Source of the DNA: Dacryopinax spathularia
Taxonomy: Eukaryota > Basidiomycota > Dacrymycetes > Dacrymycetales > Dacrymycetaceae
Direction of reading: 5' to 3'
DNA: 64,000 nt
Assembly: GCA_037974965.1 (NCBI GenBank)
Contig: JBBPFI010000005.1
Span: 1,054,001-1,118,000, forward strand
This document shows positions 4,903 to 28,133 of the stretch, in pieces. The notes under the pieces are model-generated. The model worked only from the letters and a program-made list of their open reading frames with translations, was not told the DNA's origin and searched no databases. Position 1 is the first letter of the stretch, and each line of letters opens with the position of its first letter. Both the position numbers and the translations under genes were made by a program.

Positions 4903-5802
4903 ATGGAGGCCGTCGAAGCCGGTAATATCCTCAAGCAGAACGCCACGATGCCGTGGTTGTATTGTAAGTGTGGGGTGTGTTGTATGCTGCGCGTTAGCGA
5001 CGCGCCCGGGAGCGATGGCAAGTTGTTCTATAGTAAGTAACATATTCGTGTATGCGCATATACGCTAACATAATCGTACAGAGTGTCCCGCGGTGGGCGG
5101 AAAGTTGAAGTGCGACGTCAATGGTGGGCAGCGGTTAGCCTGTCAGGTCGCGGCGCTGATCATTCGAAGAGTGGGTGTCGGACGTCGCCTTGAAAGCCGA
5201 CGTGCCGGAGGATGCGACCATCGTTCCTCCTCGCAAGGCAGGCCACCGTCGCCTGCTCACGGATGGATTCGAGATTGCGCCAGGCAACCTGTTGTGCGCC
5301 GCCGAGGAGATCGTCTTGTCCTCGTTGCCTGTCGGCGTCCTTCGTCGCGATAGCGTTGGTGGTGTGAAGCGGACCGCCGGCGAAGCGGGTGTCGAGGGCG
5401 GGGACTCTGAGGCGAAGATGTTGAAGGCGGAACCCGCGCACGACGCGTTCGAGGTGGACCGTGAGAGCGTACGTTTTCCTTCGTTAACGTTGGACAGTGT
5501 TGTTGATCATTGCGCAGAGCGTCTCCACGACTTATTCGGAGATTTTCGAGGGCTACAAGCCGCCCGTCTCCGACGAAATGCTCGGCATGTTGAAAGGCCT
5601 GCCCGACTTGTTGGGCTCGACCGCCTCGTCCGACACGGCCGTCTCGTCCGACGTTCTTCGCGTGTGCAAGGACTTGCCCGAGTTGGTCGGTTCGTTGGTG
5701 AAACGGATTAAGAAGACGGAGGCCAAGTTGAAGAAGCGGAGTGGTGAAGTGCAGATGTACCGCGAGCTGGCGGAACGCGTCGGCGCCGGAGAGGAGGTTT
5801 GA
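4903..5802 (+). CDS. GRF zinc-finger/coiled-coil protein 1 (type I)
   Basis: Four exons (4903-5032, 5082-5123, 5170-5468, 5518-5802) give 251 aa. The finger reads WLYCKCG ... GKLFY-KCP ... KCDVNEWVSD, matching the GRF pattern CxCG, then Phe/Tyr-x-Cys, then Cys-x4-Trp with a following acidic residue. Introns fall just before the third Cys and between the last Cys and Trp, as in five sister genes. A PPRKAGH block follows, also seen in type I sisters as PPGYAGH and LPGEAGH. The last exon holds LKGLPDLL, an acidic/Ser linker and a heptad-like helix (RIKKTEAKLKKRSGEVQMYR). GRF fingers in other proteins (TOP3A, NEIL3, APE2, TTF2) bind single-stranded nucleic acid; a similar role here is inference. 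Confidence 0.75.
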
Positions 5803-6247
5803 GTCGGCGAATCGGTCATGTAATTTTCTGTGGGGCCATGTAATGTTCTGTGTGTACCGTTCATATCCGTAGTTCCGTGCTGTTTGATACCACTTGGGGT
5901 TAATGCATGTGTGAACCAGTACATCTTCTCCGCCGATGACGACTCATCCGCATTTATCCGTGATCGAGAAGATAGGGGACGCGTTTGACGATTCAAGTCA
6001 TTAAGTCGGGATTTCCATTCGTTCTGGGGTTGGTTGTTCCGCTGTGAAGCCAACTCCTGATCGGTTCGTTCTTGTGTTGTTAAGTCATAGTGAGTCGTTC
6101 GGGCTGGTTTCGTTTCGTATCTCCTATTCTAAACGGTATAAGTTCCCGTGCTGTTTCATTAACGTATCGATATATTCTAATCGCCTCCAGTTGCCCCGAA
6201 CCAGCCCGGATCGCTGTTGTCTACGCACGCACTCCCTCCCCGAGACG
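5803..6247. other. Intergenic between GRF genes 1 and 2
   Basis: No exon-like frame beyond shadows. Pyrimidine-rich stretches and the motif cgtatcgatatattc near 6164 precede the next start codon, so this is probably the terminator of gene 1 and the promoter of gene 2. Confidence 0.4.
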
Positions 6248-7681
6248 ATGTCTCATTACACGCAACCGTCTGTACCTTGGCCGTATTGCTTGTGCGGTTT
6301 CCCTGCGGTGGAACTGATGTCGAAGCGTCACCTGTCCGAGGGACAGATCTTTTTCAGTAAGTCGTACTGCCGTGTATGCGCGACTTCGCTAACACGCCGT
6401 CCATGTAGAATGCCCTCGGACTGGTCAACAATGCGGCCTCTGGCGTATGCGTTCTCGTTTGGCAAGTCCGATATCGGTCTGACGAGTTGGTTAGTATGGT
6501 TGCATACCTATTACAAGACGAATGGATTCCCTCTGGACGGTCGTCCGATCCCACCCGGTGAGAAGGGCCATCGTGCACACCTCTTCAATGGTGTGCAGTT
6601 GGCGATCGGTGGGGCGTTTGACGATGCGGTCTTCACTGTTAAGCGGTTCCTTCCGGATCAATCTGTATTTGACTTGATTGACCCGTCTAATCCTGCCCGT
6701 GGTGTGCGCGCATTCGATGGCGTGGCGGATCATCTGACTGGCCGGTGAGTGTCGTGCTGGATGAACCGAATACGCTTGGATTAACGCCTGTCTACAAGCG
6801 GATCTGCCCGTTCGTCCTCGAGCCACGCGTCCGCTGCTCGTTCGTCCTCGAGCCAGGCGTCCGTTGCGTCCGGCGGCGGCTTCAGCAAGGTGAAGGTCGA
6901 GCAGCCGTCCTCGAACCCGGCGAGTGCACAATGCGGCGTGAAGCGACCCGCGGTAGACGAGGACGATGACCGTAAAGTAAAGGCACGTCTGTGTAGCGCC
7001 GATCGTAAGGGCAAAGGAAAAGAGGTCGGGGATCGTGCTGGTTGGTTCGTGAGTGTTTGCTGATTCATTGTGCCATTTGTAGGTCGTCGCGGATGACGGC
7101 GGTGCCCTGAAGACCGAGCCGGTACGTTCCCCGAGGGTCTCGCTGGTGTTTCTGATGATGTCGCAGGAGGTGTGGGTTCTCGAAGACGACGACGTTTCGT
7201 GTGATGAGCTGTCCACGGTACGTATCCTATGCGCTGTAGTTGGTTCACATCTTACTACGTCCTCGTTGTGCGGTAGGGTGCGGTCACGTCGCATCTGCCT
7301 TCGTTGATCTCCGGTCGTTCCTCGGGGGGAACCAACTCCCACAGTGTTGGAAGGACGGTGCCATCCGTCCCGTCTCACGTGTCCCGCACGGCTTCGGTTG
7401 CGATGCCAACTTCGGTTGCTGAGTCCGCTGTCGCGACGAGGGGTACAGAGGGGGTCGACGTTGTTGCGTCTTTAAGCGAGCGATTGGCGGCGGGTCGGTA
7501 CGAGGAGAGCACGTCGGTGGACCCGGACTTCATCAGAACGATTGGTTCGCTCCCGCAGCTCTTCGAACGGCTGCGAGTAGAGCGGGACGCCCTGTTGCAT
7601 CTCATAGAAGAGAAGGATCGTCTCATCCAGACTTTGCAGGGCGAGGTGGACGCGTGGCACGCTAGGTCTAGGGCCGACTGA
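6248..7681 (+). CDS. GRF zinc-finger/coiled-coil protein 2 (type II)
   Basis: Exon 1 (6248-6356) encodes VPWPYCLCGFPAVEL and SEGQIFF. Exon 2 (6409-6444, 36 nt) encodes KCPRTGQQCGLW. Exon 3 from 6495 continues LWLHTYYKTNGFPLDGRPIP, ending at 6744. Together they form a GRF finger CxCG...FF-KC...C-x4-W. A Ser-rich basic linker follows (about 6800-7030, with a 27-base direct repeat SSSSHASAAR/SSSSQASVAS), then acidic segments, and a final exon ending in FERLRVERDALLHLIEEKDR and LQTLQGEVDAW, a strong coiled coil. The middle exon borders between 6745 and 7270 are approximate. The exon 1 and exon 2 lengths are identical to those of GRF protein 5, and the PLDGRPIPP block is almost the same, so these two are close paralogues on opposite strands. 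Confidence 0.72.
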
Positions 7682-7778
7682 CGGGAGACATAACGCATAG
7701 TACGATAGCGCGACATCCTACTTTACATGGCAAAGTATAGTACGCGTAGACAGCACGATGTGAGACCTGCCTTGATAG

Positions 7779-8780
7779 TTACCAGTCTACTTCTACATTG
7801 CTTGAGTACAGTCCGTCCGCGCTTGCGGCCTTGATAACAGTGACCGTGCGCAACTGGAATGTCGCGTGATAGTGACGTTCTGTAGCGGGTTCATCATCGG
7901 CATCGAAGCGCTTGCGAAGTCGGAGTTCTTCCACTACGAGGTCACCACGACGAAGGTTTGCTGGGTCCAGAGGTACTCTGTTGCGTAATCCGTCTGTCGT
8001 AGTGTACACCGCGTTGAATGGTTTCGGCTGTCCCGGTGTTATTCGCAACCGGAGCGTGCAACGTGGCGCACTTACATTCGCCTGCCGGCTGGCATCCTTT
8101 TTGTTCGGTTCGAAAGGAATCTGCATTCGTCCAGCGATGATGGTACTGTAGCTGTGCCGGGTCGCGTCTATAGCGTTTTCAGTGCGGATAGTTCTGTTTC
8201 CAAGGCATGGACCTACGCGTGGGAGGATAGCTGTACTGGTTCAACAGACGCGCAGCGGCTTCGCTGTCGGTCTCCGAAAGGGGTCGAATGCTTATCCACA
8301 CCCTCGGCAACGGTTTCCCTTCGGAGTCGAATAGGGACAGTGAGTAGATGTACCCGCAGACGTATATGGACACGGCAAAGTTGCGATCGTTGACGAGGAA
8401 GTTGGACATGTTGAAGCTGGTTTGCTGTGTACCGAATTTGAGATCGTCCGGCACCTTCGTGATATAGTATGACCCGCGGTCTCGATTATGCTCGTTTCGC
8501 ATCGTCTTGATGCGCCTGAACATGCCGCATAAGCACATCCGCACTGCCGATGTTACAACTACGCACGATTTCAATGTGTCGTCCAACCCGAATAGGTCGA
8601 GGTCCTCCGTGTCCGGCTCGCTGCAGAGAATGAGGTGGGTCGCTGTGTGGTTACGCTGGCGTACAGGTGCAGTTCATTGGGGACGCTATTGTCCTCGGTC
8701 GCAGTCGCCGCTTCGCTCGGTGGGGAAGATCTAAAGAAGGTAATGGAGGCAACTGCAACGGTACTAGCGGGGCTGCTCAC
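7779..8780 (-). CDS. Unrecognised island protein with beta-rich C-terminus, possible CxCG finger
   Basis: The gene reads leftwards from MSSPASTVAV (8780). A short intron after NELHL joins it to EPDTEDLDLFGLDD and then VRMCLCGMFRR...NRDRGSYY, which resembles the first half of a GRF finger (CxCG...NxxRGxxYY); the later cysteines are not evident. Further on come DRNFAVSIYVCGYIYSLSLF and, in the last exon (7779-8126), CTLRLRITPG ... RRGDLVVEELRLRKRF ... HYHATFQLRTVTVI, a pattern of alternating strands like an OB-type fold. Additional coding sequence may extend up to 9260. The family is not recognised, and a nucleic-acid-binding role is only a guess. It ends tail to tail with GRF gene 2, 98 bases apart. 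Confidence 0.45.
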
Positions 8781-9320
8781 GGAATCGTAGTTTCCGTTGC
8801 GTCGGCCAGAACATCGTCAGCCTGATGGACCGTTGGTCGGACGTGCTCCTCATTTCGTGCTCTTGGCCATCGTGAGTCGTAAGCAGGAGATTGTGAGCAC
8901 CGTAGGACGTACGACTTGGTTGGGGATGGAACCGTGGCCGGATGGCTACGCTTCTTCTGTTGAGGCGCCATGCCTACTGTTTCTTGTATCGGATGCTGCA
9001 CAGGTGGTATGTTCCTCGGATTCCTGTCGTATCTATAAGCGTTCGCGTCGAGGTTTGACCGGGGCGAGTTCCACATTACTCATCGTCTCGTAAGCGGGGC
9101 CCGAAGCGTTATTTTGTTGGGTGGAGGCTCCACGCGCGATTTGTATTGTGTCAGTCAATTGACGGGTGATCCCGTTACAAGTCAGACTGTAGCGGTCCGG
9201 TTTGTCCATATCCGCGGCAATGTCCGATTCGGGTTCATACCGCTCCAGATAGAGGGTCAACCCGTTCTGTTATTAAAACGGTAGGTTGTGCGGCCTGGCC
9301 TGGCACGCTACTTCACAGGT

Positions 9321-10353
9321 ATGGCGATGTTCATACGAGGTAGGCGACTTGTTTCCCTGTTACTGTGCTCGTTCACGCGGCATATCATAGCGGACAACGG
9401 CGAACTGCTTCGGGACACGTGGGGTTTTCCGGAAGCTGTACTATTCAATGAGACAAGCGAACGAGTCCGGTGCTTTCCTAGTGACTATGGAGACGTTTGT
9501 GACATGCTCGCGCTCGTGCCCAAGCTTGGCCCGACCGAGCCGGCCCACGATCGCGACGTTGTGTTGCGCTCGGAGGGAAGTGACGGTCAGTGCGTAGCGA
9601 CTCTTCGTATGCAGGGCTTCGTTGCCAAGTGCACTCTCGGTGTTCTGGGGGATTGGGATGGGTGAGTGTCCAGCGCTCTGACGTTGACGTTATTGAGCTC
9701 GCGTGCAGGACGTTAAAAGGATGCGTTTCGGCATCCAATACGGTGTTTTTGGAGCCGGGTAGCGGCGCGTTCGCCGAGCAATGGAGAGCTACATGGAAGG
9801 CCGTCAGAGACGTCCGACGCCTCGTTTCCGCCGAGTCGCATCTGGCGCCTCTGGATCGTGTTCCTACGAGTGAGATGGATACGATTCGTTGTTCGAAGCG
9901 AGTGTTCCGAAAGGTTAGTTGGAGTTGGTGCGATAAGAAGCCGGTTACTGATGTGCGTTCCACCAGGCTGGAAGTTCCCGTCCCCTTGCTTCTCGCAGCA
10001 TTGACGATAGTGTCACTAGAATGAGTCTCCAGAGGGTAGAGAGGGTTTGGGTGCGGGATGAGGAGGTACAATTCTGCCTTCGGCGGCCGAACGGGCGCCT
10101 ATCTCGCTGCAACCCCGCCGTGTTTTCGCAGGGCGACTTCGTGGACGTCGGCGTGACGTTCGATGTCGTCCGAAGGGCTGCGGGTGTGAACGTGTACGTG
10201 CGCCTCGAGCATATGTACCTGCTTGCCAGCGTCGTCGATTTCAATGCCGCTGTGAGTGAAATGCGTTCCAATAGACCTGCCATTGATGTTTTTTGTACGG
10301 TAGAGCATTGCATCAATCCGCGGCGAGGCTGTCGAACCCGTTGCGGGTCGTAG
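9321..10353 (+). CDS. Unrecognised island protein, about 310 aa
   Basis: Three exons fit in frame: 9321-9661, 9709-9913 and 9967-10353. The protein starts MAMFIRGRRL and ends RTRCGS. The last exon contains GDFVDVGVTFDVVRRAAGVN followed by VYVRLEHMYLLASV. This resembles the RRGDLVVEELRLRKR...FQLRTVTVI block of the divergent neighbour at 7779-8780 (Gly-Asp-hydrophobic-Val, basic loop, then two strands), so the pair may share a fold, although the similarity is weak. No signal peptide or membrane segment. The first ATG of the frame was chosen; an upstream exon cannot be excluded in the short divergent space. Confidence 0.5.
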
Positions 10354-10601
10354 AGCGGCGGCATCGCTGGTGTACTTTGAGGAGGAGTAACCGTGGGTCA
10401 TTTTGAGACGCGGACCGGTCTGCTGACACAGCACACTAGCGAAGAGACGTCGTAAGTGGAGGCGGGGCGACCGTGAAAAGGGTGAGGTGCTTATTCGGGC
10501 GGATTCAAATGCTTGTCGATTTAGTCTTCTTGCTATATATTAGCAGCGGCGGGTCGTCCTCCGCCCCCATTGCGTTAGCCCGTCTGTTTTCTCCTGTCCC
10601 C

Positions 10602-11477
10602 ATGCTGACGATACGTTGTGGCGACGGTACGATCATCTCGTTGCCGGCAAGCTTTGTCTCTTTGAGCCGGACGCTTCGCTATCTGGTGGAAGGTAACGTG
10701 CCGTATACTCTTCGCTGCGAAACGAGTACCATGCGATACGTTGTCTCAGATGCTGAGTGTACAAGTGACCCCATTGACGTACCGTTCGCGAACGGGCTCG
10801 TTCTAGCAACGGTACAGGCTGTCTTCCGCTGCCTGCCAATACTGCGTTGCTCAAGGGTTGTGCCGATAGGTATGCACATGGACCACGTCTCATCTTAAAG
10901 AACATTCCGAGGTATCGAGATGTTGCGATAAGAGCACCGGTTCGGTACCGAGTTGGGAGCGGGAGCACTTGTTGGCGGCCGGGGCATCGTGGTGGGTTCC
11001 TCTCCAATAACATCACATGTCGACAAAGCTTATGGTTTCGGTAGGGCGGACTTTTTAAGAGTATGGGTACTGTGCAAAGGTCCTCGGTACATTTCGTTCA
11101 TCGCCTTGGCAGGTAGGGGACTTTTTCGACTTGACTTGTTTGAGGTACGAACTGTCCGGGAGCAAACGTGTAACGCCAGCAGACGGTTCCAATACAGGGT
11201 GGTTTGTTTCAAGTTGATCGCCGACGAGATGGAGGAGCTTGATCCCGCGTCGCTTGGAAGGTATCTGGGAACGAGCGTGCGGAAGGAGCATTCCAAGAAT
11301 GTACGTACGCCCAGTATGAGTGAGCATGAGTTCACGGTATCGTAGAGTTGCGCAATCTTCCCGCAGGAAATCCGAGCGCTCAAGCAGGGTGCCGGCTCGT
11401 CCTGTCAGCGAATTGTTGCCGAGTGCGGGAGTGGAGCGTTTGCAAGCGCTGAAATTCGTCCCGGGTCGACGACGTGA
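10602..11477 (+). CDS. Diverged SKP1-like protein
   Basis: The first exon (10602-10811) reads LTIRCGDGTIISLPASFVSL then SRTLRYLVEG ... DPIDVPFANGLVLAT, which fits the POZ fold of SKP1 (TLxSxDG, lS-x-T-l, IPLPNVxxxIL). After an intron (10812-10855) comes GCADRYAHGP, like the SKP1 CxxYxxH stretch. A later exon reads RFQYRVVCFKLIADEMEELD then PASLGRYLG, matching SKP1 helix VTCKTVANMI followed by PEEIRKTF. SKP1 links F-box proteins to cullin-1 ubiquitin ligases; this copy is so diverged that cullin binding is uncertain. Borders of the middle exons (about 10900-11190) are not resolved. The last exon runs on to 11477, overlapping the stop end of the Helitron gene on the other strand. Confidence 0.5.
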
Positions 11478-14400
11478 GGCGAAGAGAGAACTTGGTGGGT
11501 GGAAAGGGTCGTAACACAAGGAGGCCGTTAAGAGTCCTCACGCGCGAGAGCATGACGTACAGGCTCTGAGAAGATCGACAACTTGCAATGTCCACTATCG
11601 CCCTATCCAAGGAACGTCCCTGACTCTTGTAGTCCGTATATGCGTAGGCGGGAAGTAACGGCAGTTGAGTTCTCGTGACGGATACACCTCGCCATCGGAA
11701 GTGTCGATTAACGGGTACGATGGGCGCCACGTCTTCCGGTAGATTGGGGTGCAGGCGACCGCATCCTTGCACATACACGAATACGACGGCGGCGTGCTGT
11801 GTTCCGTCGTCGCTGCTCTCCAGTCTTGCCCCGCATACAACACCCTCCGTGCCGTTGACGATGTGCTTCGCTATTGCCACGTTCTCGGTCACCATGACTC
11901 GCATTCCAATGAAGAGCGGAATACACCCCAACGAGTCGCCAGAAGTGGTGGAGGATATCGACAGCGCATCAATGCGTTGTTGTCCGTGTAATCTCTTCCG
12001 GCGTATGCGATCGACCGCGTACAGCAGATGGATGTCTTGTTTCAAAGCATTTGCGTGCCTCCTGCTTAACCTCTCATTCAAAGCGTCTCGCAGGCTCTTG
12101 GTGGCCGTTATAATCGGGGCGTTTCGGAAGCGCTCGAGGTCTTCGGGCTGGTGCATTGCAACAACATGCAGCTGTCTCGTTTCCAGTATTTGGGCATCGG
12201 TACGACCGTATGAGCTGGACTGTTTGCGGAGGTCAGTGATCGCGTTGCCGTCTCTAAGTCGTTCCAGGAGGTTGGCCCACCTGACATCCGCGGCTTGTCT
12301 CATGTTTCTACTCAGTAGCACTACGCTGCGGACCTGACTCCATAGAAAAGCGCCGTGGAGTGCGTCCTGGCCAGGAAGCGATTGGGTTATGGACGGCATT
12401 GCCGTATCTGTGAGGCGGCCGTCGAACACCGGCTGCCCTTGAACGGGTCGGAGTTGCCCGAAGTCGCCCAAGAAAATCACGTTGATGCCTCCAAAGGGGA
12501 GCGATGACGCGTCGCCTCCCTTCGCCAAGCTAAGTCTTCGCGATATATCGCTCATGAATTTGGCCGATATCATCGAGACCTCGTCGATGACAAGATATCG
12601 CACGTCGCGCCATAATTGTTCCAACGTTCCCAGATTGATCCTCTTCGACGGCTGCGGGAGCAGCGTGAGCGCGTGAATTGTATAGCCACCGATTACAATG
12701 GCAGCTGCTCCGGTCGGGGCTGATATGCGAAGTGTCTCCGGTACACCCATCGTCTCGAATAGGAAAGCGATCCCTCGAATCACATGACTTTTGCCCGTGC
12801 CACCCATGCCGCCGACGTACAGCAACAGTTGCTTGGCGTCGGCGTTCTGGATATGGTTCGCGATCGTGTCGATTACTTGTGCTTGCTCGGGGTTGTCTTG
12901 CATTCCAAGGTGCTCAATCACACGAGCAGCCGGCGTCATGGCAGCCAGCGTCTCTCCGCCTTGCAGCGAAGATCTCGATCCGGAACGCAACGCGGACACC
13001 GTCTGCACCTCTGTCGTTGGAAGCACCGAGGGGTATCCCACCGGGAAGGAACGACTCGTATCCATGTCACGCAGAGTTGGCCGGCGATCCTTTCTAAGCT
13101 CGGTCATTGTCTCGGCGAAATCCCTCACGAGGACTCTATCCGTATCTGACGCGCTACGTATATCCAACCGTGGTACGTTCAACTCAAGACCCATGCTCGT
13201 GTCCCCTACACATGAAACGGAATCGAGCAAACCGGTCGCGTGCAGCGCAATCTCGTTATTAACGCGCTTAACGTTTTGCTCGACATCCGCGGTCCGCTCG
13301 GCTTCGTCGCTGTCGAGCATGTCGAATTCCGACGCACCCAATGCCGGTTGATTCTCATCTTCGACGTCCACATCCACCGAATCTGGTTCTAGGTCTGCGC
13401 GGTGCGCACTGTTCCGATCACGAACATCCTTGCAATCTCGCAGCACGTTAATGTTATCCATGATCCGCAGCGCGTTGGCCGGGAAGTCGGTGGATGCGTA
13501 TGCCTGCTCCCAATCTTCGTCCCACGGCTTCAAGTCGCTCACCACTCTCCACGGTTTGAAGACGATAAGCATCGCTCTACACCAGGCCGCATAATCCGTG
13601 TCCTTCCGAGGCATCGTCGGTCCTAGGATGACTGGTACGACGGCAGATCCGTAGCTGTATGCCAGCCGATGGGTCGCATGCTGAGGATGCTGCGGCAGAA
13701 ACAGTTCTGTCACAACACGTTGTTCTTCCGCGTTGTCTTCTGCCTCTACAGTCCCATGCTCCCGCCTGATCTTTTCTTTTCTCGAACGCGCAACGAAGTC
13801 GTACAAGTTCAGGCGTTCGAACTCGGCCTGCTGCGGTCGGCACGTGTAGTCCAGCAATTGATTCGTTGCGGAACTATGTGTAGTCGATATCTCCAGGATG
13901 AACTCGAGGGATGGACCGAGTCGTGCACGTTGCACGCGTTGCACGTTGTCCGATTGGTCCACCAACCGACTCCCTCGGCCCCGTCGATCTGCGTCGCCCA
14001 CGAGTCGCCAGAATGCGGCACTATCGATCTTGGCGGTCACAGCGGACTCTATGACCGCTGCATCTTCTGCGGTCCAATGGGATAGCCGGGCGGACTCTTC
14101 ACGTGCGCGTTGCCCTTCATCGGTTTCGTCTTGCAATATGTAGGTCAATATAGACTCGCCTTGCGCAACCAGTGCGTCTCCGCCGGCATGATGGGCAGCC
14201 TCGCGTTCAGTAACGTCTTCAATGATAACCCCGGCCCGTACGCTTGGCGCGTCGGTTATACCTTCCGTCTCAACGGTTACATACTGCGCTTGTTCCTGCG
14301 CGTCTCGCACTACCCGATCGAATACCGACCATTGCATCACGCGGAATCGATGGCTACTGTACACATCCCCTCCCCCTACGTATTCGCTCATAACTTGCTG

Positions 14401-17010: not shown

Positions 17011-17016
17011 GCAACG

Positions 17017-17560
17017 TCATTTCGGATCAGATGCCTGCAGCGGTGCTGTCGCCTTCCTTTTGTTTTGCAGACGCCGTCCGCTCACCGCCGTTCTACTGCG
17101 AAACGCACACACTACGGCACTGCAAGTCGGACGACAATGGTGCTGCGCCATCTCGTCCGCTATCGTATGCCTGTTCTCGCGGCAATTGATGGGTATGCTA
17201 TGTAACGCACATACCTTTATCATGAAATCTTTACGGACGGTCGAGATGATGGTTACGAGGTCAGCGAGACGCTTAAAGCGGACCATACAGACTCGCTGAT
17301 CATGGTATCGTTCTTCGTCTGGTATGGCTTCCACACTCGCAAATACGTCCAACCCGCTGTAATGCGCCGCTAGAAAACCCGTGCTAACTTCCGCCTCGTC
17401 CGCAGTCATGTCATCCGTTACGCCCGTCCGTATGCGAAAGCGAGAAGCGTCTGCGTCACAACATATTGGCATCCGCATCAACATCGGCATCGACATCGAC
17501 ATGCACATCATGCATCGTACGTGCGTCGCACGCATCCGTCCGGAGAAAACCGGCGGCAAT
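17017..17560 (-). other. Probable 5' coding extension of the Helitron gene
   Basis: Upstream of the Rep-helicase ATG the same frame continues. It reads DFMIKVCALHSIPIN, IADEMAQHHCRPTCSAV and VCAFRSRT. From memory this resembles the small N-terminal domain of basidiomycete Helitron proteins, where a helix-rich segment ends in HxC..C and Val-Phe. It is separated from the main ATG by one TGA at 17017-17019. A plausible donor (gcg|gtgagc, near 17080) could splice it into the main frame, or the stop could be a real mutation or a uORF. A hexamer-like repeat of catcga/catcaa units lies at about 17465-17513. Confidence 0.45.
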
Positions 17561-18102
17561 TCAGGACCATAACAGGGGACAGGTGGGCCGACAGCGATAT
17601 CGGCGGCGATAGGACATGACGTTGACCAAAAATACCAGCGCGACAGAAAAGGGTTTAACAAGACAGTCATTAGTGACATGTTCAAACACAACTGCACATC
17701 CTCATGTTGGGGGTTGTCGATGGATGACTCGCCAAAGGAGGTTTGAACCATCTCATTTGCCCCTATCTCCGCTGACATTCTGAAGTCCGACGCCTCCATA
17801 CTGGATGACAACATCAAGTCATGTCCATACCAGATCATCCCCGGCGACTTACCTTAACATGTGCAAGCGATTCCTTGTCTAGATGATGGTGACTAGAATC
17901 TCCTGTCTCCCGTACCAGCGCTGATCAGGAGCTGACTTCACTCAGCATGTCCCTTTCGGCGTCGATCAGCAGACCCTTGCCGAAAGGTGGCGCCACGGAG
18001 ACTTATGTCTCACCAACCGCTGTCCGATGGAGTACAAATACCCGTCATATCGCCTCGAGTCGGATCCCTCCCGCCGCCCATAACAACCATCTTGCTCTTG
18101 TC

Positions 18103-19548: not shown

Positions 19549-19753
19549 ATACGACTTGTACTAGTAGGACCGACGCGATTGCGCCTCATTAATAATCATA
19601 TTCTTGCTGCGATACCCTTTCCAATTCCTTTACCCCTGTGACTCCTTCGCTCACAGCGGAATGCTTCCGGCCGCCGACCGTGAAGTCGGGCCGCTCGAGC
19701 CTTCGCTTCGGCGTTTAGTGCACGCAACACCTCCTCTCGACTTCATCATCATC

Positions 19754-20569
19754 ATGGCTGGTACGTGCAGGTCCATCTACAAGACGTACAACGGCTCACC
19801 ATACCAAGTCGCGGCCAAAGTCACATTCGTCACACACGGCGCTCATACTGTTCGCCTACAAACCATTCGAACTTGGCGGGTGGTCGAAATCCCCAGCGAC
19901 TTTCAACCCCCCCCCACCTGGCCGGTCTTATTGGCTCGACTTCGACCCGGTGACATCGCCTGGGCACGAGATCGCTTCCGTCGAGTGCAACGGTGCTGGT
20001 TCGTGGACAAGGACGGAGGATGGGTCGTAGGAGCCGCAGCGAGTCGGCATCCCGCGCGGCCGCAGCTGGTTCTCTGTGTCGTCGATGAACCTTGCTGGAT
20101 GTCCCTCATTTCGCTGATCAAGAAGATGAGGTACACCAATCCCGATATGGATGAGCAGGTGCGCACCGTTACACCTTCCACACTCCATCGTCAACTCATC
20201 CGTGTACAGGCCACGCCAAACGCCACGGTCTTTGGCTCCTGCTGGGACCCTCTTCCCGACCGACCGGACTTGATGATAACCGTTGGGGTCGGCACAGGCC
20301 CTTCGTATCCGCCGCTTCTTCCTCACACCCCGCCGTTTGCGTTGTGGGTGTTCGGCGCCGACGTCCTCACTTGTCATGTTTGGCTTCGCCTTCACAACGG
20401 ACTTTGGCAATTGGTCCAAGACGGCATTAGCCACCCAGACGGTAGCGGCCGTATCTTGTCCACCGTTCGGCTGGTCCCGATGTGGATATGGGCATCGTCT
20501 TGGAATGTGAGAGCAAAGAGGAAGGCGCTACGAACCGGATCGAATGATCCAAGCGAATATTTGGACTGA
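19754..20569 (+). CDS. Unrecognised island protein, 271 aa
   Basis: A continuous frame starts at MAGTCRSIYKTYNGSPYQV and ends at DPSEYLD. It contains RLRPGDIAWARDRFRRVQRC and many Trp residues, mainly in predicted beta strands, and has no transmembrane or signal segment. The RPGD motif with strands on both sides is faintly like the GD blocks of the proteins at 7779-8780 and 9321-10353. It lies about 200 bases after GRF gene 3 and 300 before a nucleotidyltransferase-fold gene, all on the same strand. No family assigned. Confidence 0.5.
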   Translation: MAGTCRSIYKTYNGSPYQVAAKVTFVTHGAHTVRLQTIRTWRVVEIPSDFQPPPTWPVLLARLRPGDIAWARDRFRRVQRCWFVDKDGGWVVGAAASRHPARPQLVLCVVDEPCWMSLISLIKKMRYTNPDMDEQVRTVTPSTLHRQLIRVQATPNATVFGSCWDPLPDRPDLMITVGVGTGPSYPPLLPHTPPFALWVFGADVLTCHVWLRLHNGLWQLVQDGISHPDGSGRILSTVRLVPMWIWASSWNVRAKRKALRTGSNDPSEYLD

Positions 20570-20873
20570 CTGCAAAACATCTCGGCAACGGTTCAAAGCG
20601 CTGGGGAATCCTGTTGGAACGAAGGAGGCATCCGCGCCGTACTTCGCTTCTCTGTAATGCTATAGGATAATCATGCCACGGAGCCTGATACGGCTTGCAC
20701 ACGTGTACAATCACATAACCAATCACAACTGTAGTCCTATCCCGCCGGGTCAACCCCATCATGAAAGCGTAGCTTCCGATTGGTTGTCGGCACGTCGTCG
20801 CCGCCGTCACATTGCGCGCGGTACATATAGGTTTGTCGGGTCAACGCAGCGACCAGTTTTGCCCAAACCTGCG

Positions 20874-21940
20874 ATGGATCATCAAACGAATTCTTCCAGC
20901 GAACCGCTCGACTTGAGCCACGCACTCCTCGACGAATTACTTGAATACTGCACTGCGCGCCTTCTTTTCCGGATGTCCACTCTTGAAGGGGACATTCGGC
21001 GGCTGGTATTCCGTCACCTGGCGAAACGCTATGACGTGAAGCTCATTCTCAGCAAATTTTTCGACGATCCCGCCGCCATCGTCACCATCATGCAACGCAC
21101 CGGCGCGGTCATCAGCGGATCTCAACCCCTACAGCTCCTCCTCGATGTCACCTGGGACGCGTCCGACTTGGACTTCTACGTACTACCTTCCGCCGCGCAC
21201 AGCCTGCTTCGAGCCGTACAGGGCAGGGGCTACACTGTCCACCGTATCGTGCCAGCGGACTGCTTCCCATCTGCGCAACAACCTGGTCCCCTGTACGGCG
21301 CCAACAGCGAAATTCGTAGCGGTGAGTGCGAACCACTCGCATATATTCAACTTGAACCACCCACAGTGGCCACGTTACACAAACGGCTCCATTCTGGCGT
21401 CATCGGGAAGGTTCAAATAATCGTTCCTGCTCACGGTATCATCCCATGCATCCTCAGTTTTCACTCCAGTGCGCGATACATTGTTCCCGACTTCAACCCC
21501 TGACGAGTCGCTTCGCAGCTTGCGTTATGTCTTGGTTGACTTGGGACCGGCTATTCAGCCTGTACCCGCTGGCCATCATGCAACGCATGGCCCTGGCGCT
21601 CGACAGGCGCATGGGTCTTCCTTCCCTTCACGCCATCGATAAATACAAGAATCGTAATTTTCGCTATCAATCCGACCTCACCGAACTCGAACTGTCGACC
21701 GCTTTCGCCCTCGGAACACGATTTATCGGCGACTCGCACTGCCTCATCATCCAACAGGGTGACCGTGCATCGTCTACGTTGCCAACCTCTCCACTGCGAC
21801 CATCAAACGATCATTACGATGGATCTTGGCTGTTGTTAAAGGACCATCACGGCCACTATTTTCATCGCTTCACTCGGACTCCGCATATATACGGAGCGCC
21901 GAACCGAGACTTCGTGCGATCTTCTCACCAGTCGTTATAA
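20874..21940 (+). CDS. Nucleotidyltransferase-fold protein (Agaricomycetes family), copy 1
   Basis: Three exons (20874-21321, 21367-21468, 21519-21940) give 323 aa. MQRTGAVISGSQPLQLLLDV followed by SDLDFYVLP is the Gly-Ser plus Asp-x-Asp signature of a nucleotidyltransferase fold. The second exon contains GKVQIIVP, and the junction of exons 2 and 3 makes FHSTCVMSWLTWDRLFSLYP, a very characteristic core of an uncharacterised family common in mushroom-forming fungi. FALGTRFIGD follows. Both acidic residues of DLD are kept, so nucleotide transfer is conceivable, but no member known to me has an assigned activity. The gene is convergent with its paralogue at 21963-23010, with only 22 bases between the stops. 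Confidence 0.72.
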
Positions 21941-21962
21941 GCGCGAGTCATTTCATCTATTA

Positions 21963-23010
21963 TCACGTCTCTTTCGTCGCGTCTAACTTGCCACCGTAAG
22001 GGACAGTCGTGCTGTAAGCAATAAGCCTCGAAACCTCATGCTGAAAAGCGTCCCCCGGGCCAATACGAGCTAGCCACCAGTCCGTACAGCAATGCATCAG
22101 CGGGTCGCGGCATCCAGCCGTCCGGCTCTCCCCACGGAGTGCGCATGAGCCAACCCAGCTCAGTTCGTCCCCGATCCATCTCACGCCGCTGGGACACACC
22201 CGGCGACTCGAGTCTTCCCAGGAAACGTGCCGCAGCAATCCCGTAAGCGTCTGCGTCCTCCTGTTGGCCTCATCGAACCCAGCAACTGCCACTGGGAAGG
22301 ACACCTTCAACCGCAACGTAGCACTCGGATACAACGAGTATATCCACCTCGTTGTCATGAAATTCATCAAAGCCGCTGGGGTGTATTGAGCTCGTCTCCA
22401 CTGCACAATCCGAGTCGGTGCACTTACTTTCCGGCAGCAACGGAATACTGAGACTGGGCGTGAACTTCACCGACACCACGCGAATGATTCCCCCGGACGG
22501 AGACGTAATGCAGGTAACTGCTCGTATAATTAGCAAGAGAACAGTACGTCACGGAGTATATAACGCACCACCCGTTGCGTCGCACGGAATCGGAGCTCCG
22601 CTTTGATCAGCGATTCTGCTGGACCGATACGGCCCTTGCGCTGTAATGTTGCAGTCGGACCGTACAAGCACGTCCAGGACGCTGGCGGCGTCGGCCGTAC
22701 GAACATAGATATCAAGCACCCAATACCGGCTCGGCCTTCCCAACAAACTCGCAAGCAATCCCAGTCCAGACAACGCTGCTCCGCTCCGTTCCATCACTTC
22801 TTCGAGAGCTCGACTGTCCTCGAGGTAAGGCCGTAGAAGAACGTGCGGATTCCAACGTTCTATCATCATGCCGCAAACAAACGCATAATCTTGTGTGTCG
22901 CCCTTTCCGACTACTATCAAGTCCGGTATGTCGCAGAGTGAGAGGATGCGATGGTACGGCTCGAACGCACCAACACGCTCCAGTAGAGACACGTAGCGCC
23001 GACGGGCCAT
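21963..23010 (-). CDS. Nucleotidyltransferase-fold protein, copy 2 (diverged)
   Basis: Three exons on the minus strand (22572-23010, 22428-22517, 21963-22375) give 313 aa. They have the same intron phases as the neighbouring paralogue. The signature is worn: ERSGAALSGLGLLASLLG then RYWVLDIYVR, so the Ser-Asp-Leu-Asp motif has become Val-Leu-Asp. The third exon keeps MNFMTTRWIYSLYPSATLRL and SGVRWIGDELSWV, matching SLYP and RFIGD of copy 1. Loss of one acidic residue suggests reduced or lost catalysis. The first ATG that gives good similarity was chosen; an upstream in-frame ATG near 23138 would add a short leader. The two copies are inverted, consistent with an old inverted duplication. Confidence 0.65.
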
Positions 23011-23243
23011 GGCCACCTTCTCCCTTCCAATCAGCACACCCGTCGTGTATATGTAGCAACGTTTCCGTAGTGTCCTCGATGACCCAACGCTTACCACATC
23101 AGAGTCACAGCTCCGCCCTGTATTGTTTCCTGCTGTCATGTGGCCCTGTTCCGTACCTCGCCGGACCGCCAATCGCCGCCGACAGCGGGTCGTATAATAT
23201 CCCACGTACCTCCCCACGCATCCTTCCCTGTCCCCGGTCAGAC

Positions 23244-23961
23244 ATGTCAGCTAACCATCCGGCCCACATTCCCGAATCGGAGCTGATCCGCCTCATACTC
23301 GCACCCGTGTCTGATGCAGCTTACGTGCCCCTCTTGGGATTTACCGTCACCGACGCCGAGCTGGAGGATGTAGGCAGAATGGTCCTGCCAACCATATGTC
23401 TCGAGTCCTACCGCGACCATTACCCTGAAACATCCCTAACGACTTCGCTGGTATGCGCCGTTCCCTCTTCCGCGACCGTTACCAACGCCAACGACACGTT
23501 AGAGACGTTGCTCCCACATTGCGCACCTCCACAACCTGGACCGTGCCGCCAAGCATATTGGGTTGACGCAGTCGGACGAACCACAGCTGCCCACGTCCAT
23601 CAACACCCTGCGTCTACGATTCTACCGCTGGATCGGCGCCATTTTCTTGAAATATCGCTCCCGAGCGGCTGCGAGATTGATCGACCTTGACATCCTCGAC
23701 CCAGACGATACTAGCGACTTTCTATCAGACGTTCCGCCGGCGTTTCCAGACGTTGTCATGAACAACGCCCCACAAGACGCCCGAGTTGTCCCTTACGATA
23801 GCAGTACGGCGGGTGCCAAACATGACCTTCTCAGTCGCGCAACAAGTGCAGATCTTCCGCTCACATGGGACGTTCGTCCCTCAGGTCCGCATCACACACG
23901 CACTTGGACGGCCCGCATTTATCGTACGAGTTTAGGCTTGTCCTACCCGTCGCGGAACTGA
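23244..23961 (+). CDS. Unrecognised island protein, 221 aa
   Basis: Two exons (23244-23450, 23503-23961) joined by a 52-nt intron give a clean frame from MSANHPAHIPESELIRLILA to SLGLSYPSRN. The middle reads RFYRWIGAIFLKYRSRAAAR then LIDLDILDPDDTSDFL. It is helix-rich at the N-terminus with an acidic stretch in the middle. It shares a divergent 230-base promoter region with nucleotidyltransferase copy 2 and converges with GRF gene 4. No family assigned. Confidence 0.5.
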
Positions 23962-24103
23962 CTACGCTTAGACAAAGACTCGCTCATAGGCGAGGCGTTC
24001 AGCACTAAGAAACGGTCGGCCGAGGACGCCGCCGCCGTCGACGCGCTGAGGCGTCTGGGGTGGGATGTTCGTTACTGATTCTGTTCCACGCTGCATCGTA
24101 CTT

Positions 24104-24823
24104 CTATACCCATGCCATACCGTTATCAATGACATCGTACGCCTCTTCCAACCTGCGTTCCAATCCAGCCACACAGTTCTCTTCCTCCTCCAACCGTCTA
24201 CGCAAGGCCTCGACGAGATCCAATATCGCGGTCAACTCACTCACCCCTTCACGCGCAGATAGATGTTTCGAGTCTTCCAAGCCGATTGCTTCCAACATCG
24301 AGCAGAGCTCATCGTCGCCCTATCCAACATGTCAGAACCATTGTGCCCACACGGGGATAGCCATAATCACCTTAAGTTCTCTCGGCGTTCGCTTGCGACC
24401 GTAACGCTCCCTAAACGGATACGGTAGTAGATGATACGCCTTCTCCGCCGCCTTACGCCTCGCATCCTCGGGCGCGGCGAACCCTGGCATACTATAATAG
24501 CTTTCGTGACCAGCATAACCGGGCGGTACCACCCTCCAAGGCGAGCTCAGTTCGCATGCGTTAGCGAGATCGTCCACCCAAACTATGCAACGATCAGTCT
24601 GGGAGCGCAATCCGTCGCACGACGCGCACCATGGACTTGACAACGCATAGTCATAGACATTTGCGGGCATCCTGCGATACATCAGCGCCGTGCCCACCTT
24701 GGGACACACGGTATACGTACTGTAGAACAGATTGCCTGCCGATCCGGGTGCATTGCTAACCTGCAACGTGCAGGGCAGACCGCAAGCGCAGTAGAGCCAA
24801 GGCAAAACGGGTAGTTCAATCAT
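24104..24823 (-). CDS. GRF zinc-finger/coiled-coil protein 4 (type I)
   Basis: Four exons on the minus strand (24721-24823, 24630-24671, 24371-24582, 24104-24319) give exactly 190 aa. The finger is LPWLYCACGLPCTLQVSNAP ... NLFY-RCPQMSMTMRCQVH-VWVDDLANA: CxCG, Tyr-x-Cys, Cys-x4-Trp with a following Asp. The middle exon is 42 nt, as in GRF protein 1. VVPPGYAGH repeats the family proline-glycine-histidine block. The last exon is almost all coiled coil (LVEALRRRLEEEENCVAGLE then RRLEEAYDVI). This compact member shows the minimal architecture: finger, about 70-residue middle, coil. Confidence 0.78.
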
Positions 24824-25028
24824 GTCGGACGAGACAAGACGAACACAGTTCCTCGGCATCCGTTCTTATATTGCGTGTCGCGATACCGCATCGCTTTCAA
24901 TGACTCGCCTTTCGGCGGCGATTCGATGTCCCTCCGGCAATCCATGTGTTCCACCCCTATTGACGAATGACTCGTAGACAACCCCTTTCGAGCGAAGGCT
25001 GTCAAGTCATATACAATCGTTATCGCAT

Positions 25029-25668
25029 GCAGGTCGACCTTCCTCTACACGAATACGGCCACGCTTTGGGGGCCGAAACGTGCCGACGAGCCCAGGACGC
25101 AGGGTGGATTCGCAATATGCTCGCCTAATAGGCCATCAGCGCAGAGCCCACATGCTGTCTTCGGCAGACGTACCCCAAACACACTGTCCATGTCGATCAT
25201 AACGACCGCGTTGCCCAACAATCACACCTTGGAACGTCGGCTGCAGTGAGAGGCGACCCTTTTCTCTCACAACGGAACAAGATGACCCGCTCCGCGCCAG
25301 CGTCACCGTCGGCCGCCCCATCTCGTCAACCAACCGCCACCACGTATGAGCAGACACCGCGCCCACAAACCAACCATACCTCGCAAACGGACTCATGTAA
25401 GTCCATTCACCTGCATCACGCTGGCGTTAACCTTTAGCTTCTCCAGGACGAAACAGAGTCGATCGAGGACAACCACCCTTTCGCAAAGCCTGACATGAAC
25501 CGCTTGCTCCAAGGCATCCAAGCAATTCCAGACTTCATCGAGCGATGTGAGGCGAAACTCCACAATCTTGAAAATATCGCCGAAGCCGACGAAGCACTTA
25601 TCTACGAACTCCAACGGGAGATCAAACGACTTCGAGCCACCACGCACCGGCCCGCTCCATGCGGTTAA
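25029..25668 (+). pseudogene. Partial GRF-family copy lacking the zinc finger
   Basis: The last exon (about 25438-25668) encodes MNRLLQGIQAIPDFIERCEA and ALIYELQREIKRLRA. This matches the IxxLPxxL plus coiled-coil ends of GRF proteins 1-3. A low-complexity Ser/Pro/Thr linker (SAPASPSAAPSRQPTATTYE) lies upstream near 25280, and a short frame at 25029-25127 (HEYGHALGAETCRRAQDAGW) resembles the post-finger block of GRF protein 4. No CxCG-bearing exon is seen between GRF gene 4 and this point. It is probably a 5'-truncated member, though a gene with an undetected first exon is possible. Confidence 0.35.
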
Positions 25669-25764
25669 CCCCAGCAATACGGCTCAATCTGTTCATTATT
25701 GTAGTCCTAACGCATCTTGTACCGTACCTACACAATACAAACTGTTCGCAATACCCCAACGTCC

Positions 25765-26779
25765 TCACGCCCGGCTGATACCAAAGCCAACCTTCGCCTG
25801 CGATACGGCCGCCTGCAGGGACTCAACGTCCGCATGCCTTTCCATGACGGCCGACGCAAGGATTCGCAAATCATCCTCCAACCGCGAAAAGACTCTCGTC
25901 AACGTAGCCGTTGCGGTCTCCACCGACTCAGCGTCGCTGTCGGGACCGTTCCCCGCTACGTTGCCCGTATCGTGTTGTTCCGTAATCGTAGGGCACACTC
26001 GCTTGCCCCTCGCGTCTGACTCTTCCTACAGACGTATCAGCGGATAGGTCCGTTTAACCAAAACGACCTCACATCGTCCGTCCCATTTGAATCTCTGCTG
26101 CGCTTCCGTTGCCTTTTCCTATCACCACGTTGACTGCCACGCCTTCCACTCGCCTCACCAGCCACTGCGGTGCCTCTGGTCCCTCCGGCACCCCCGCGCT
26201 CTTCTTGATTCGTCCGCTTCCGTCTGGTACGACGTCGGTCAGCCAAGCCGTATACCCGATCCGGAAACGGACGGTTTGCTTACCCGCCACGAATACGTTC
26301 TATGTACGAAGCAAGAGCAATCACCCCCCTAGACGGATCTGATGGGTCGGATAATTTGAACTCGTCTTGGTCCGGTAACCACCGCAGAACGTGCGCAACC
26401 GCTTCATCCATCTCCCTACCCTCAGCCATCTCCACGTCTTCAGCCAACAACGGAATATGATCCTCCTCCTCAGGCGGTATCGGCCGGCCGTCAACGGGAT
26501 ATGCGAACTCTGAGTATAGTTGGTGGAGCCAGACTGTATCATCCCGTTCAATACCATTGCCACCGAAACGATTGACAGCGCTTACCCCACGTATCGCACT
26601 GATAGCCAGTGCGAGGACACTCTGCGAATTGAATTTACTGGCCCGCTCCGATAGGAACGATCGGACTTACTGAAGAAAATTTGGCCCTCCGACAACGGCT
26701 GACCGGACTGCAGCTCTACCGTAGGCAATCCACATCGACAATACGGCCAGGGAAGCGACGGTTGAACCCAATCGACCAT
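25765..26779 (-). CDS. GRF zinc-finger/coiled-coil protein 5 (type II)
   Basis: Exon 1 (26671-26779) encodes LPWPYCRCGLPTVEL and SEGQIFF. Exon 2 (26586-26621, 36 nt) encodes KCPRTGYQCDTW. Exon 3 from 26533 encodes VWLHQLYSEFAYPVDGRPIP, acidic residues and DEFKLSDPSDPSRG. Further exons follow, and the last (ending 25765) holds DLRILASAVMERHADVESLQ, a coiled coil. Exon 1 (109 nt) and exon 2 lengths equal those of GRF protein 2, and DPSDPSRG matches DPSNPARG of that protein, so the two descend from one duplication. Middle exon borders around 26000-26290 are approximate. Confidence 0.7.
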
Positions 26780-27075
26780 GGTTCGACTTACAAAACGATA
26801 CGAGGTGGAGTCAAGCGGGCGGAGAGATCTGGAATGCTGATCAGCACCATCTGCGCAATCCAGGCGCTTTATAAACCTTCGCCGAACCGTATCAACGAGT
26901 CACACAACGATCGACTCGCCCCCTATTTCCTCGCGTTCCAACGATAACTCCGCCGACAAAGATTTACGGTTCGCTCAAAACTGCACCGCGGCATCGAAGT
27001 CATCTCGGTCAAACACGTTGGACTCATAAGCAGCGTACTGTACAAAACGACTCATAACGGCTCCAGCATGACTCC
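26780..27075. other. Intergenic between GRF genes 5 and 6
   Basis: No exon-like frame. It holds the promoter side of GRF gene 5 and the 3' side of GRF gene 6, both on the minus strand. Confidence 0.4.
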
Positions 27076-27929
27076 TCAACCAATCTGACGAAGCGCATCC
27101 GTCAACTCCTTCTCCAACGCCACAATCCTCCTCTCTCGACGCTTCAGCTTCTTCTCCAATGATTCGATACGCGCCTGCAGCTCCTGAATGTAACCGGAAA
27201 CAGACTTCAACGTGTCGATCATCGAGTTCAACACGGCAGTAGCGGTACTGCTTTCCGCCTTGATTTCGGCCGTCGTCTTGAACGCGCTCTCGTAGTCACT
27301 CATTTCCGTCTCGCCCTGTGACCCATCAGCATCGCGCAACAAACGAAACCGCCTCACTCACCGCAGAGTAGCTCTCCACCTCGGGCTCGTACGAGGGAGA
27401 CCTTTTCGGGCCCAAGAGCAGTTCATCGGGCGACTCCGACCTGATCCTAATGCGGCCACCGCGGCTACATGACCTCTTCAGCGTTACGGTCGACTGACAT
27501 GTAATTAGACGTACCTCGCCAATTCCTCTGGCAGCTTGCTCATGACAAACTCGGCACTCTCGCGCAAGCGGTCTCGCTCCGCTACACGCACGCCGTCAGG
27601 CGCATATATCCAGTGTCCCGCCTCGCCGGGCAACACTAGCTCTCTCGGACTCGCGATGCCTCGTTCGTTCGCCACGTCGATAACCCAAACTACGTAGCCG
27701 TTCAATTACGAGCCATCCCACGCAGTCCCTACATACCGGTCGTCGTGCAGCGCACATGGTTCATGCGAGCGCATTCTGCCACAACGTGAGTCGATATATG
27801 CGCTCGTTACGTTCCGAACTCACTGAAAAAGAGGTCCCCGGCGCTATCTGGCTCCTTGCTCACATGCAAGGCACACAGCAGACCACAACGGCATACCAAC
27901 CACGGAACGATCGTCTCGGCTTGCGGCAT
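27076..27929 (-). CDS. GRF zinc-finger/coiled-coil protein 6 (type I)
   Basis: The first exons are 27824-27929, 27737-27775 and from 27689. The finger reads VPWLVCRCGLLCALHVSKEP ... DLFF-KCARMNHVRCTTT-VWVIDVANE. SPRELVLPGEAGH matches the PP..AGH block of GRF proteins 1 and 4. The C-terminal exon encodes IQELQARIESLEKKLKRRER then IVALEKELTDALRQIG, a textbook leucine-rich coiled coil, ending at 27076. Splice sites between the post-finger exon and the final exon (about 27360-27530) are not resolved. This is the rightmost member and points inward, mirroring GRF gene 1 at the left edge. Confidence 0.72.
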
Positions 27930-28133
27930 AGTCTTGACGAGTCGAGACCTTGTCGAAGGTGACGGGTCGGCAACGAGACAGAGGAGCAACGAGGTCAGCT
28001 CGGCCTTGTGTGGCGTACCATTTTCAATTGCTTCCGTTGACCAGGTGCTCCCGGAGGGGTTCTCTATCAGATGCACGCGGGGAAAATCCCACTCCGGCGG
28101 CAAGATCGGGCACGATCGGGCTTACATCACAGC

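Follow-up and report, generated by a model that had tools for sequence, protein, structure and literature searches.

Six genes encoding GRF-like zinc-finger proteins, a RepHel transposase gene, and a set of further genes form one 23.45-kb mobile element with Helitron2-type ends in the 64,000-nucleotide stretch of Dacryopinax spathularia DNA analyzed here (the window, in whose positions all coordinates are given). The element spans 23,452 bp (4615..28066, no strand assigned), its 3′ limit being accurate only to within a few bases. The initial annotation had the six genes packed around a Helitron gene; that link was right and proves stronger than proposed, but the genes belong to the element rather than to its neighborhood because they lie inside its termini. 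Constant gene order, the lack of matches outside elements for the two fingers searched, and purifying selection indicate that they are most likely the element's own genes. On balance, we favor the reading that they are coding parts of a 23.45-kb Helitron2-type rolling-circle transposon carrying its own accessory-protein kit for single-stranded DNA.

The window was compared with the 29.2-Mb assembly of the same D. spathularia genome (24 contigs). Four copies of the element were found at unrelated sites, on contigs C5 (that of the window), C14, C8, and C7, and their flanks (approximately 5 kb on each side) displayed no mutual match at E ≤ 1e-5. Blastn alignments of the window with the C14 and C8 copies stop at 4615 and 28067/28068. 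One other copy is 98.7–98.9% identical, one approximately 66–73%, and one (C7) is more diverged; the three divergent copies have 13 genes in common, in the same order, comprising RepHel, the six finger genes, a coil-only relative of these (g13), and five others. A 5′ terminal hairpin, CCTGGTCAACGACCAGG (4617..4633, plus strand), includes the asymmetric inverted repeat of that end, CCTGGTCAACG, at a distance of 2 bp from the TC terminus; C5, C14, and C7 have TC-CCTGGTCAACGACCAGG in identical form, with a stem of 7 bp, and C8 carries one change and a stem of 6 bp. The 3′ asymmetric inverted repeat CCTGGTCAACG (28035..28045, minus strand) lies 21 nt inside the 3′ end, with one change in C8, and is accompanied by a weak palindrome, CTCCCGGAG (28048..28056, no strand assigned), of three pairs and -2.0 kcal/mol. 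The base preceding TC is A in four of five cases and T in C5, and no target-site duplication was noticed at these occupied sites.

Helitron2 elements are described (Bao and Jurka, 2013, PMC3627910; PMC5148889; relevant sections) as having a 5′ asymmetric inverted repeat that lies 0–2 bp from the end and forms a hairpin, and a 3′ repeat approximately 20–30 bp inward of the 3′ terminus. The element has the same RepHel, 5′ repeat and hairpin position, and 3′ repeat distance, and in some Helitron2 elements RepHel likewise runs opposite to the TC-end orientation (same sections of PMC3627910 and PMC5148889). It differs in the weakness of its 3′ palindrome and in size, the Fusarium FoHeli elements being given as approximately 5–11 kb (PMC5148889, relevant section) as against 23.45 kb with 13 shared genes.

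The RepHel ORF (11380..17016, minus strand; 1878 aa) unites a Rep domain bearing the HUH motif with an SF1/PIF1 helicase, the combination expected of a Helitron: Pfam recognizes Helitron_like_N (3e-35) and PIF1 (5.9e-21) as well as DUF6570, and both HIH and Walker A are present. No Helentron-type endonuclease domain was found among the eight Pfam families matched at E ≤ 1. In this copy an in-frame TGA divides the main ORF from an N-terminal part (17020..17451, minus strand) that is conserved in C8 and C7. Other genes include g8 (19754..20569, plus strand; 271 aa, one exon), which had no Pfam or NCBIfam match, shares a 27-residue stretch with PHROG 13095 (function unknown; E 3.3e-5), and, modeled alone with AF2, gave no usable fold (pLDDT 38.9). 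The conserved part of g9 (20946..21922, plus strand) carries the motif ISGSxPLQL..SDLDFYV, which may be nucleotidyltransferase-like; Pfam does not support this assignment, g9 drawing only an unrelated family there (E 0.024). A possible g9 paralog with a degenerate motif, g10, lies at 21966..23016 (minus strand).

The six finger genes have complete spliced ORFs, with GT-AG introns of 45–60 nt and start codons exactly where the initial annotation had put them, at 4903, 6248, and 18103 (plus strand) and 24823, 26779, and 27929 (minus strand). Gene A (4903..5802; 251 aa; exons 4903-5032, 5082-5123, 5170-5468, 5518-5802), gene B (6248..7681; 371 aa, seven exons), and gene E (27076..27929; 220 aa, five exons) each encode a GRF-like finger followed by a coil, and in gene C (18103..19548; 448 aa, three exons) a long low-complexity middle separates the two. 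Genes D (24104..24823; 190 aa, four exons) and F (25765..26779; 268 aa, five exons) end in helical-looking tails, preceded in F by a basic stretch. The CxCG...[FY]-x-C...C-x4-[WF] finger reported earlier, with introns before the third Cys and the final aromatic, was recovered in every spliced ORF; the full pattern is CxCG-x18-[FY]-x-C-x6-8-C-x4-[WF], and in all six genes intron 1 falls within the codon that precedes the third Cys, with intron 2 likewise inside the codon just ahead of the final aromatic. When the gene models were projected onto the C8 copy, GT/AG sites and open frames were kept for all six. In C7, gene D projected fully, gene C was open but had no ATG at the projected start, gene E was open provided that its second intron has been lost, and for A, B, and F the tails could not be projected. 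The predicted introns are thus confirmed by copy-to-copy comparison rather than by RNA.

All six spliced fingers carry the GRF signature (CxC, [FY]xC, and C with a final aromatic), and Pfam GRF (PF06839) matches five of them at E 3.6e-5 to 0.059; gene C has no match at E ≤ 1, and at E ≤ 10 all six are matched. Where reported, scores range from 13.9 to 24.3 bits and none reaches the curated 25.9-bit cut-off, so the fingers are called GRF-like rather than GRF. A profile search of the PDB with the fingers retrieved the GRF fingers of NEIL3 at E 4.1e-4 and 2.7e-3; 29 TALE-type chains ranked above these were rejected, as in the three alignments seen insignificant repeats had merely been summed. GRF zinc-finger proteins such as NEIL3 display the same CxC..[FY]xC..C..aromatic finger, whereas those of the element fall below the Pfam cut-off, have PW preceding the first Cys, and are transposon-borne. 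Other members of the class are APE2, TOP3A, and the GRF-coiled-coil proteins of plants, in which a finger is followed by a coil. A genome-wide Pfam GRF search gave four other matches, none within the window; two of these, both on contig C4, are strong and appear to represent a single ordinary GRF gene.

Selection was measured between C5 and C8 as pN/pS, the finger part being taken as the first 66 codons; values were.223/.576 for gene A,.182/.670 for B,.332/.772 for C,.198/.766 for D,.142/.712 for E,.157/.797 for F, and.161/.755 for RepHel, ratios that are approximate only because synonymous sites are near saturation (no dS value could be calculated for C, D, F, or RepHel). The finger genes are therefore under purifying selection between diverged copies, about as strong as that on RepHel in four of six, with A and C clearly less constrained; in all six, pN is lower in the finger part than in the whole gene. 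In an orthology tree the finger genes group by position, with the minimum of five label changes, a value that none of 200 shuffles equaled.

The PWxxCxCG pattern had 33 matches in the DNA of the genome and two for a reversed-pattern control, and 24 of the 33 make up four sets of six, one per element, which excludes chance clustering. Of nine solo matches outside the elements, the four inspected were rejected as finger genes, having stop codons and no F-x-C half. The same six genes stand in fixed order around RepHel in C5, C14, C8, and C7. The test proposed earlier, whether such genes lie closer to Helitrons than expected by chance, was run in this one genome: at E ≤ 10, finger F had 34 exon matches and finger D 30, every one of them inside the four related elements, in searches that could miss strongly diverged members. 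At 26 other Helitron loci, covered as the matched RepHel segment plus 1.5 kb and hence not always on both sides, scanning with a finger HMM yielded no additional convincing finger; such absence is weak evidence because the HMM missed a diverged gene on C18. The status of the latter as a finger relative is doubtful: kinship is suggested by intron positions, spacer, and coil judged by eye and by a weak match to B (E 0.013), while the gene matched only itself in the genome at E ≤ 10 and forms a very long branch in the orthology tree. Since the finger set was seen at four of the 25 Helitrons listed, with this doubtful relative in addition, Helitrons as a group cannot depend on it. Beyond this genome, the six-finger alignment had no protein-database match at E ≤ 0.01 among 7999 candidates, in a search dependent on shared short words and for genes that mostly contain introns, which gene prediction may overlook. 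With RepHel as a control, the database returned 85 proteins, many from named basidiomycetes (best, Calocera, 51%), indicating that fungi are covered. Seven finger-pattern matches in viral contigs included no relative.

The C-terminal coiled coil described in the initial annotation stood in part. A, B, C, E, and a seventh gene, the finger-less g13 (25331..25667, plus strand; limits approximate), all end in one shared coil-like motif, but the tails of D and F gave no significant score for it. A single-sequence model of the last exon of gene E is one 77-residue helix (pLDDT 93), which fits a coil without proving one. The initial annotation had not included g13, the element termini, or the other conserved genes.

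A role for the finger proteins in Helitron replication, one of two that the initial annotation had entertained, is plausible by analogy with known elements. RPA-like proteins occur in plant Helitrons and are reported for those of zebrafish, sea anemone, and Drosophila, where, as may be the case here, an element-borne protein believed to bind single-stranded DNA accompanies RepHel (PMC4683698, relevant section). The element differs in having zinc-finger-plus-coil proteins, six per element; Pfam recognized no RPA-like domain in the proteins scanned, among them the first halves of g9 and g10 but not g13. We infer that the finger proteins could be oligomeric accessory factors of comparable function. 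Each divergent GRF finger would hold single-stranded or forked DNA, and each C-terminal helix would oligomerize, possibly mixing the paralogs and coil-only g13; jointly, the proteins would coat or organize the long displaced strand, or the circular single-stranded intermediate, made by RepHel.

Alternatively, the proteins may regulate the element, binding its ends or transcripts so as to adjust transposition, or counteracting host silencing, instead of coating replication intermediates. We give such self-regulation a modest chance: at each end of the element a gene of the A/D/E group stands with one from the B/C/F set, both reading inward (A and B on the left, E and F on the right), the basic stretch of F could be a nuclear signal, and diverging middles (gene C is 51.7% identical between C5 and C8, RepHel 74.0%) could mean an arms race. 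Yet conservation is highest in the fingers, and no further DNA-recognition motif was seen. Less probable is an action on protein or RNA, the fingers serving, for example, as modules for assembling a larger nucleoprotein particle of the element. GRF-type fingers may bind RNA or protein too, zinc ribbons often do so, and coils and low-complexity middles suit assembly; nothing specific speaks against this reading.

That the genes are passive cargo captured from the host is very unlikely. Gene capture is frequent in Helitrons, and those of Pleurotus include captured genes whose origin is unknown (PMC4289320, relevant section), but the F and D searches at E ≤ 10 found no host copy, and the same six genes recur in four copies, orthologous by position and under purifying selection between C5 and C8. 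Least credible of all is a host gene family clustering around Helitrons as repressors, the other role that had been entertained: proximity alone speaks for it, whereas the genes lie between the termini of a mobile unit inserted at four sites with unrelated flanks, keep their identity, order, and selection in its copies, and have no member elsewhere in the genome in the F and D searches.

The preferred reading, an accessory kit for single-stranded DNA, bears, in our view, on the way in which kilobase lengths of single-stranded DNA are copied and protected by RepHel, and six paralogs with a finger of ssDNA-binding type kept under selection are candidates for expression and testing. In open-license PMC text, no paper was found joining Helitron with GRF zinc finger, GRF-type, or zf-GRF, and nothing relevant on giant or large Helitrons. 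The Pleurotus elements HELPO1 and HELPO2 are likewise basidiomycete Helitrons with extra genes but are of 1.5–13.7 kb, show AT insertion, and terminate in CTRR-type ends, and the sections describing them do not mention a GRF set (PMC4289320). A Microbotryum study counted Helitrons as intact at 5–11 kb (PMC10502011, relevant section), a range that would miss elements like the 23.45-kb one, and genes of giant Helitrons may be counted as host genes.

More tentatively, and with rather less confidence than we attach to the kit itself, basidiomycetes may have a class of giant Helitrons, each with many genes on 23 kb to perhaps 33 kb or more, that encode their own replication or packaging kit, in which g3 would be a near-universal companion, g4 a second core gene, and the six GRF-coil proteins, in one lineage, a mixed coat on the ssDNA intermediate. 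Neither g3 (7779..8738, minus strand; limits approximate) nor g4 (9321..10390, plus strand; 288 aa, five exons) has a significant family match; a protein-database search with g3 gave nothing at E ≤ 0.1 among 984 candidates, and profiles run against the PDB gave nothing significant for g3 (best E 0.3) or g4. Relatives of g4 lie downstream of RepHel at 11 of 25 RepHel loci listed for the genome, and those of g3 at 24 of 25, which points to a Helitron core gene matching no family.

The six finger genes of the window, A, B and C on the plus strand (starts 4903, 6248 and 18103) and D, F and E on the minus strand (24823, 26779 and 27929), lie within a mobile unit that runs from 4615 to about 28066. 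Its limits are placed there because alignments of the window with the copies on contigs C14 and C8 stop at these points (left limit 4615 in both, right limit 28067/28068), a further copy on C7 has ends of the same kind as those of the C14, C8 and window (C5) copies, and flanks of ~5 kb per side of the four copies gave no inter-copy match at E <= 1e-5. The initial annotation was right to link the genes to a Helitron, although rather than being packed around it they sit within the element's limits. In the 29.2-Mb, 24-contig genome containing the window (C5:1054001-1118000), the DNA pattern for PWxxCxCG occurs in 33 places, 24 of which form four sets of six on C5, C14, C8 and C7; the reversed pattern, used as a control, occurs in 2. 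Genome searches with proteins F and D at E <= 10, in which every first-look candidate was scored (28 and 26, respectively), returned 34 and 30 matches. Within this one genome the proposed proximity to Helitrons was borne out, all of these matches falling inside the four intervals, each of which bears a Helitron Rep-helicase transposase (RepHel). The RepHel ORFs nearest to that of the window are also found there (itself, 99%, 74% and 61% identity). Database matches of RepHel, of which the best named one is from Calocera, together with the shortness of the introns suggest a basidiomycete host.

At the left end of the element TC precedes CCTGGTCAACGACCAGG, which forms a hairpin of 7 bp and holds the repeat CCTGGTCAACG; at the right end an inverted copy of CCTGGTCAACG lies 21 nt inside, together with a weak palindrome. 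The C8 copy has one change in each repeat. In published descriptions of Helitron2, a distance of 0-2 bp separates the 5' repeat, set in a hairpin, from the terminus, the 3' repeat is about 20-30 bp inside, and RepHel is reversed in some elements (PMC3627910; PMC5148889). As judged from sequence, the ends of the element fit this description, in both the hairpin repeat after TC and the internal 3' repeat. The base preceding TC is A in the C14, C8 and C7 copies and in a short derivative, and T in the window copy. This derivative (C8:1007410 to about 1007760, a 351-bp span) matches the left-end 92 bp at 93% and the right-end 26 bp at 100%; having both ends of the giant element in ~350 bp, it looks as a non-autonomous copy would be expected to. 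Its terminal bases are unlike those of the large copies, which is part of the reason that the exact 3' end is known only approximately. A degenerate left end lies at C15:503763, beside a fragment with 85.6% identity to the 3' part of C8 gene E and the following spacer; tandem repeats of 132 nt are also present at this locus. Helitrons of the basidiomycete Pleurotus are given as 1.5-13.7 kb (PMC4289320), and those taken as intact in a Microbotryum study as 5-11 kb (PMC10502011). No Helitron carrying GRF genes was found in the open-licence literature.

Reading and splicing the sequence by hand confirmed six complete genes with starts exact to the nucleotide. Their introns are 45-60 nt and GT-AG throughout, and both sites originally claimed are present in all six, intron 1 splitting the codon preceding the third Cys and intron 2 that preceding the final aromatic residue. 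The spliced fingers have the consensus CxCG-x18-[FY]-x-C-x6-8-C-x4-[WF]. The fingers restored by splicing are recognized by an independent profile, Pfam GRF (E = 3.6e-5 for A, 1e-4 for B, 4e-5 for D, 9.9e-4 for E and 0.059 for F); C had no match at E <= 1, and all six proteins matched at E <= 10. None of the six exceeds the curated cut-off. When the PDB was searched with a six-sequence profile, the GRF fingers of NEIL3 were retrieved (E = 4.1e-4 and 2.7e-3); 29 TALE-type chains that ranked over NEIL3 were set aside. Two adjacent strong GRF matches at C4:1206794-1207223 (E 5.9e-15 and 7.9e-13) probably belong to a single ordinary GRF gene of the host that has no relation to the element.

The C-termini of A, B and C have a similar coil-like segment, which recurs in g13, a seventh gene that lacks the finger. 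A profile built from these four scored the E sequences of C5, C8 and C7 at 27.5-40.1 bits (maximum 7.9 bits over 100 shuffles of each sequence), and the last exon of E is predicted, by structure prediction without alignment, to form a 77-residue helix (pLDDT 93). The D and F tails gave no significant score against this profile, so that the suggested C-terminal coiled coil is supported by a shared coil-like motif for A, B, C and E but not for D and F.

Gene order is fixed, C5, C8 and C7 having in common A+, B+, g3-, g4+, RepHel-, C+, g8+, g9+, g10-, D-, g13+, F-, E-. The C14 copy is 98.7-98.9% identical to the window across the compared parts, with five of the six finger genes readable in full and open and C seen in part only. 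Projection onto C8 left all six open with splice sites kept. On C7 the fingers and spacers of all six genes are open, E is without its second intron, and the position projected as the start of C is not an ATG; tails were modelled there for C, D and E. In a finger-plus-spacer tree each of the six positions forms one group (5 changes, the minimum; 0/200 shuffles as low), support being weak for the B (37/2) and F (73/36) groups; the six-gene set is therefore most likely older than the split of the copies. Selection has acted since the split of C5 and C8, between which synonymous changes are close to saturation: pN/pS is.142/.712 (ratio.20) for E and.157/.797 (.20) for F, equal in constraint to RepHel (.161/.755,.21),.198/.766 (.26) for D and.182/.670 (.27) for B, which are near it, and.223/.576 (.39) for A and.332/.772 (.43) for C, which are weaker. 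In all six, pN is lower for the finger part than for the whole gene. Between C5 and C14, five genes have 18 silent and 17 replacing codon changes, too few to judge recent constraint. In the window copy an in-frame TGA lies between the conserved N-terminal part and the main RepHel ORF at 17017-17853, where C8 is open, and the C14 copy has a stop within the main ORF. The ORF at 23239-24000 (+), with a weak C7 match and none listed in C8, is a possible variable gene of the element.

Since NEIL3 GRF fingers are described as binding single-stranded DNA or forks (PMC9266487), the finger proteins may do likewise, and their coils would oligomerize them. They could thereby serve the single-stranded intermediate of RepHel, the role believed to be that of the RPA-like proteins of plant and animal Helitrons (PMC4683698). 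The main rival to such an accessory role is regulation by the element through the finger proteins.

Elsewhere in the genome, 47 RepHel matches collapsed to at least 25 loci (25 of 53 first-look candidates scored). Relatives of g3 lie on the same strand 0.4-7.3 kb downstream of RepHel in 24 of the 25 listed loci, and g4 relatives are likewise downstream at 11 of them, on the strand opposite to RepHel; 6 of 30 g3 loci in the genome are without a listed RepHel. Gene g3 (7779-8738), for which Pfam, NCBIfam, PHROG and PDB searches gave nothing significant, is likely to be a Helitron core gene. A Helitron on C18, with a RepHel 55% identical to that of the window over the N-terminal half, carries g3, g4, g8-like and g9-like genes. 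A gene beside it (minus strand, 2324-923 of locus L048) has both finger-gene intron positions by eye, with CTYH replacing CxCG; its standing as a diverged finger-coil relative is doubtful because a search with it retrieved no other finger gene. Outside the element, about four tandem ORFs of the FWW...WDDFV..MRKMPC type, paralogous-looking by eye, occupy 32134-34767 (-), and the two that were scanned had no Pfam match. Finally, RepHel, g4, g3, g8-like and g9-like genes extend over about 33 kb at both C17:249837-282831 and C4:986757-1019744, two loci with matching scores and spacings. At each, the g9-like gene and the start of RepHel are about 33 kb apart, which suggests Helitrons still larger than the window element.
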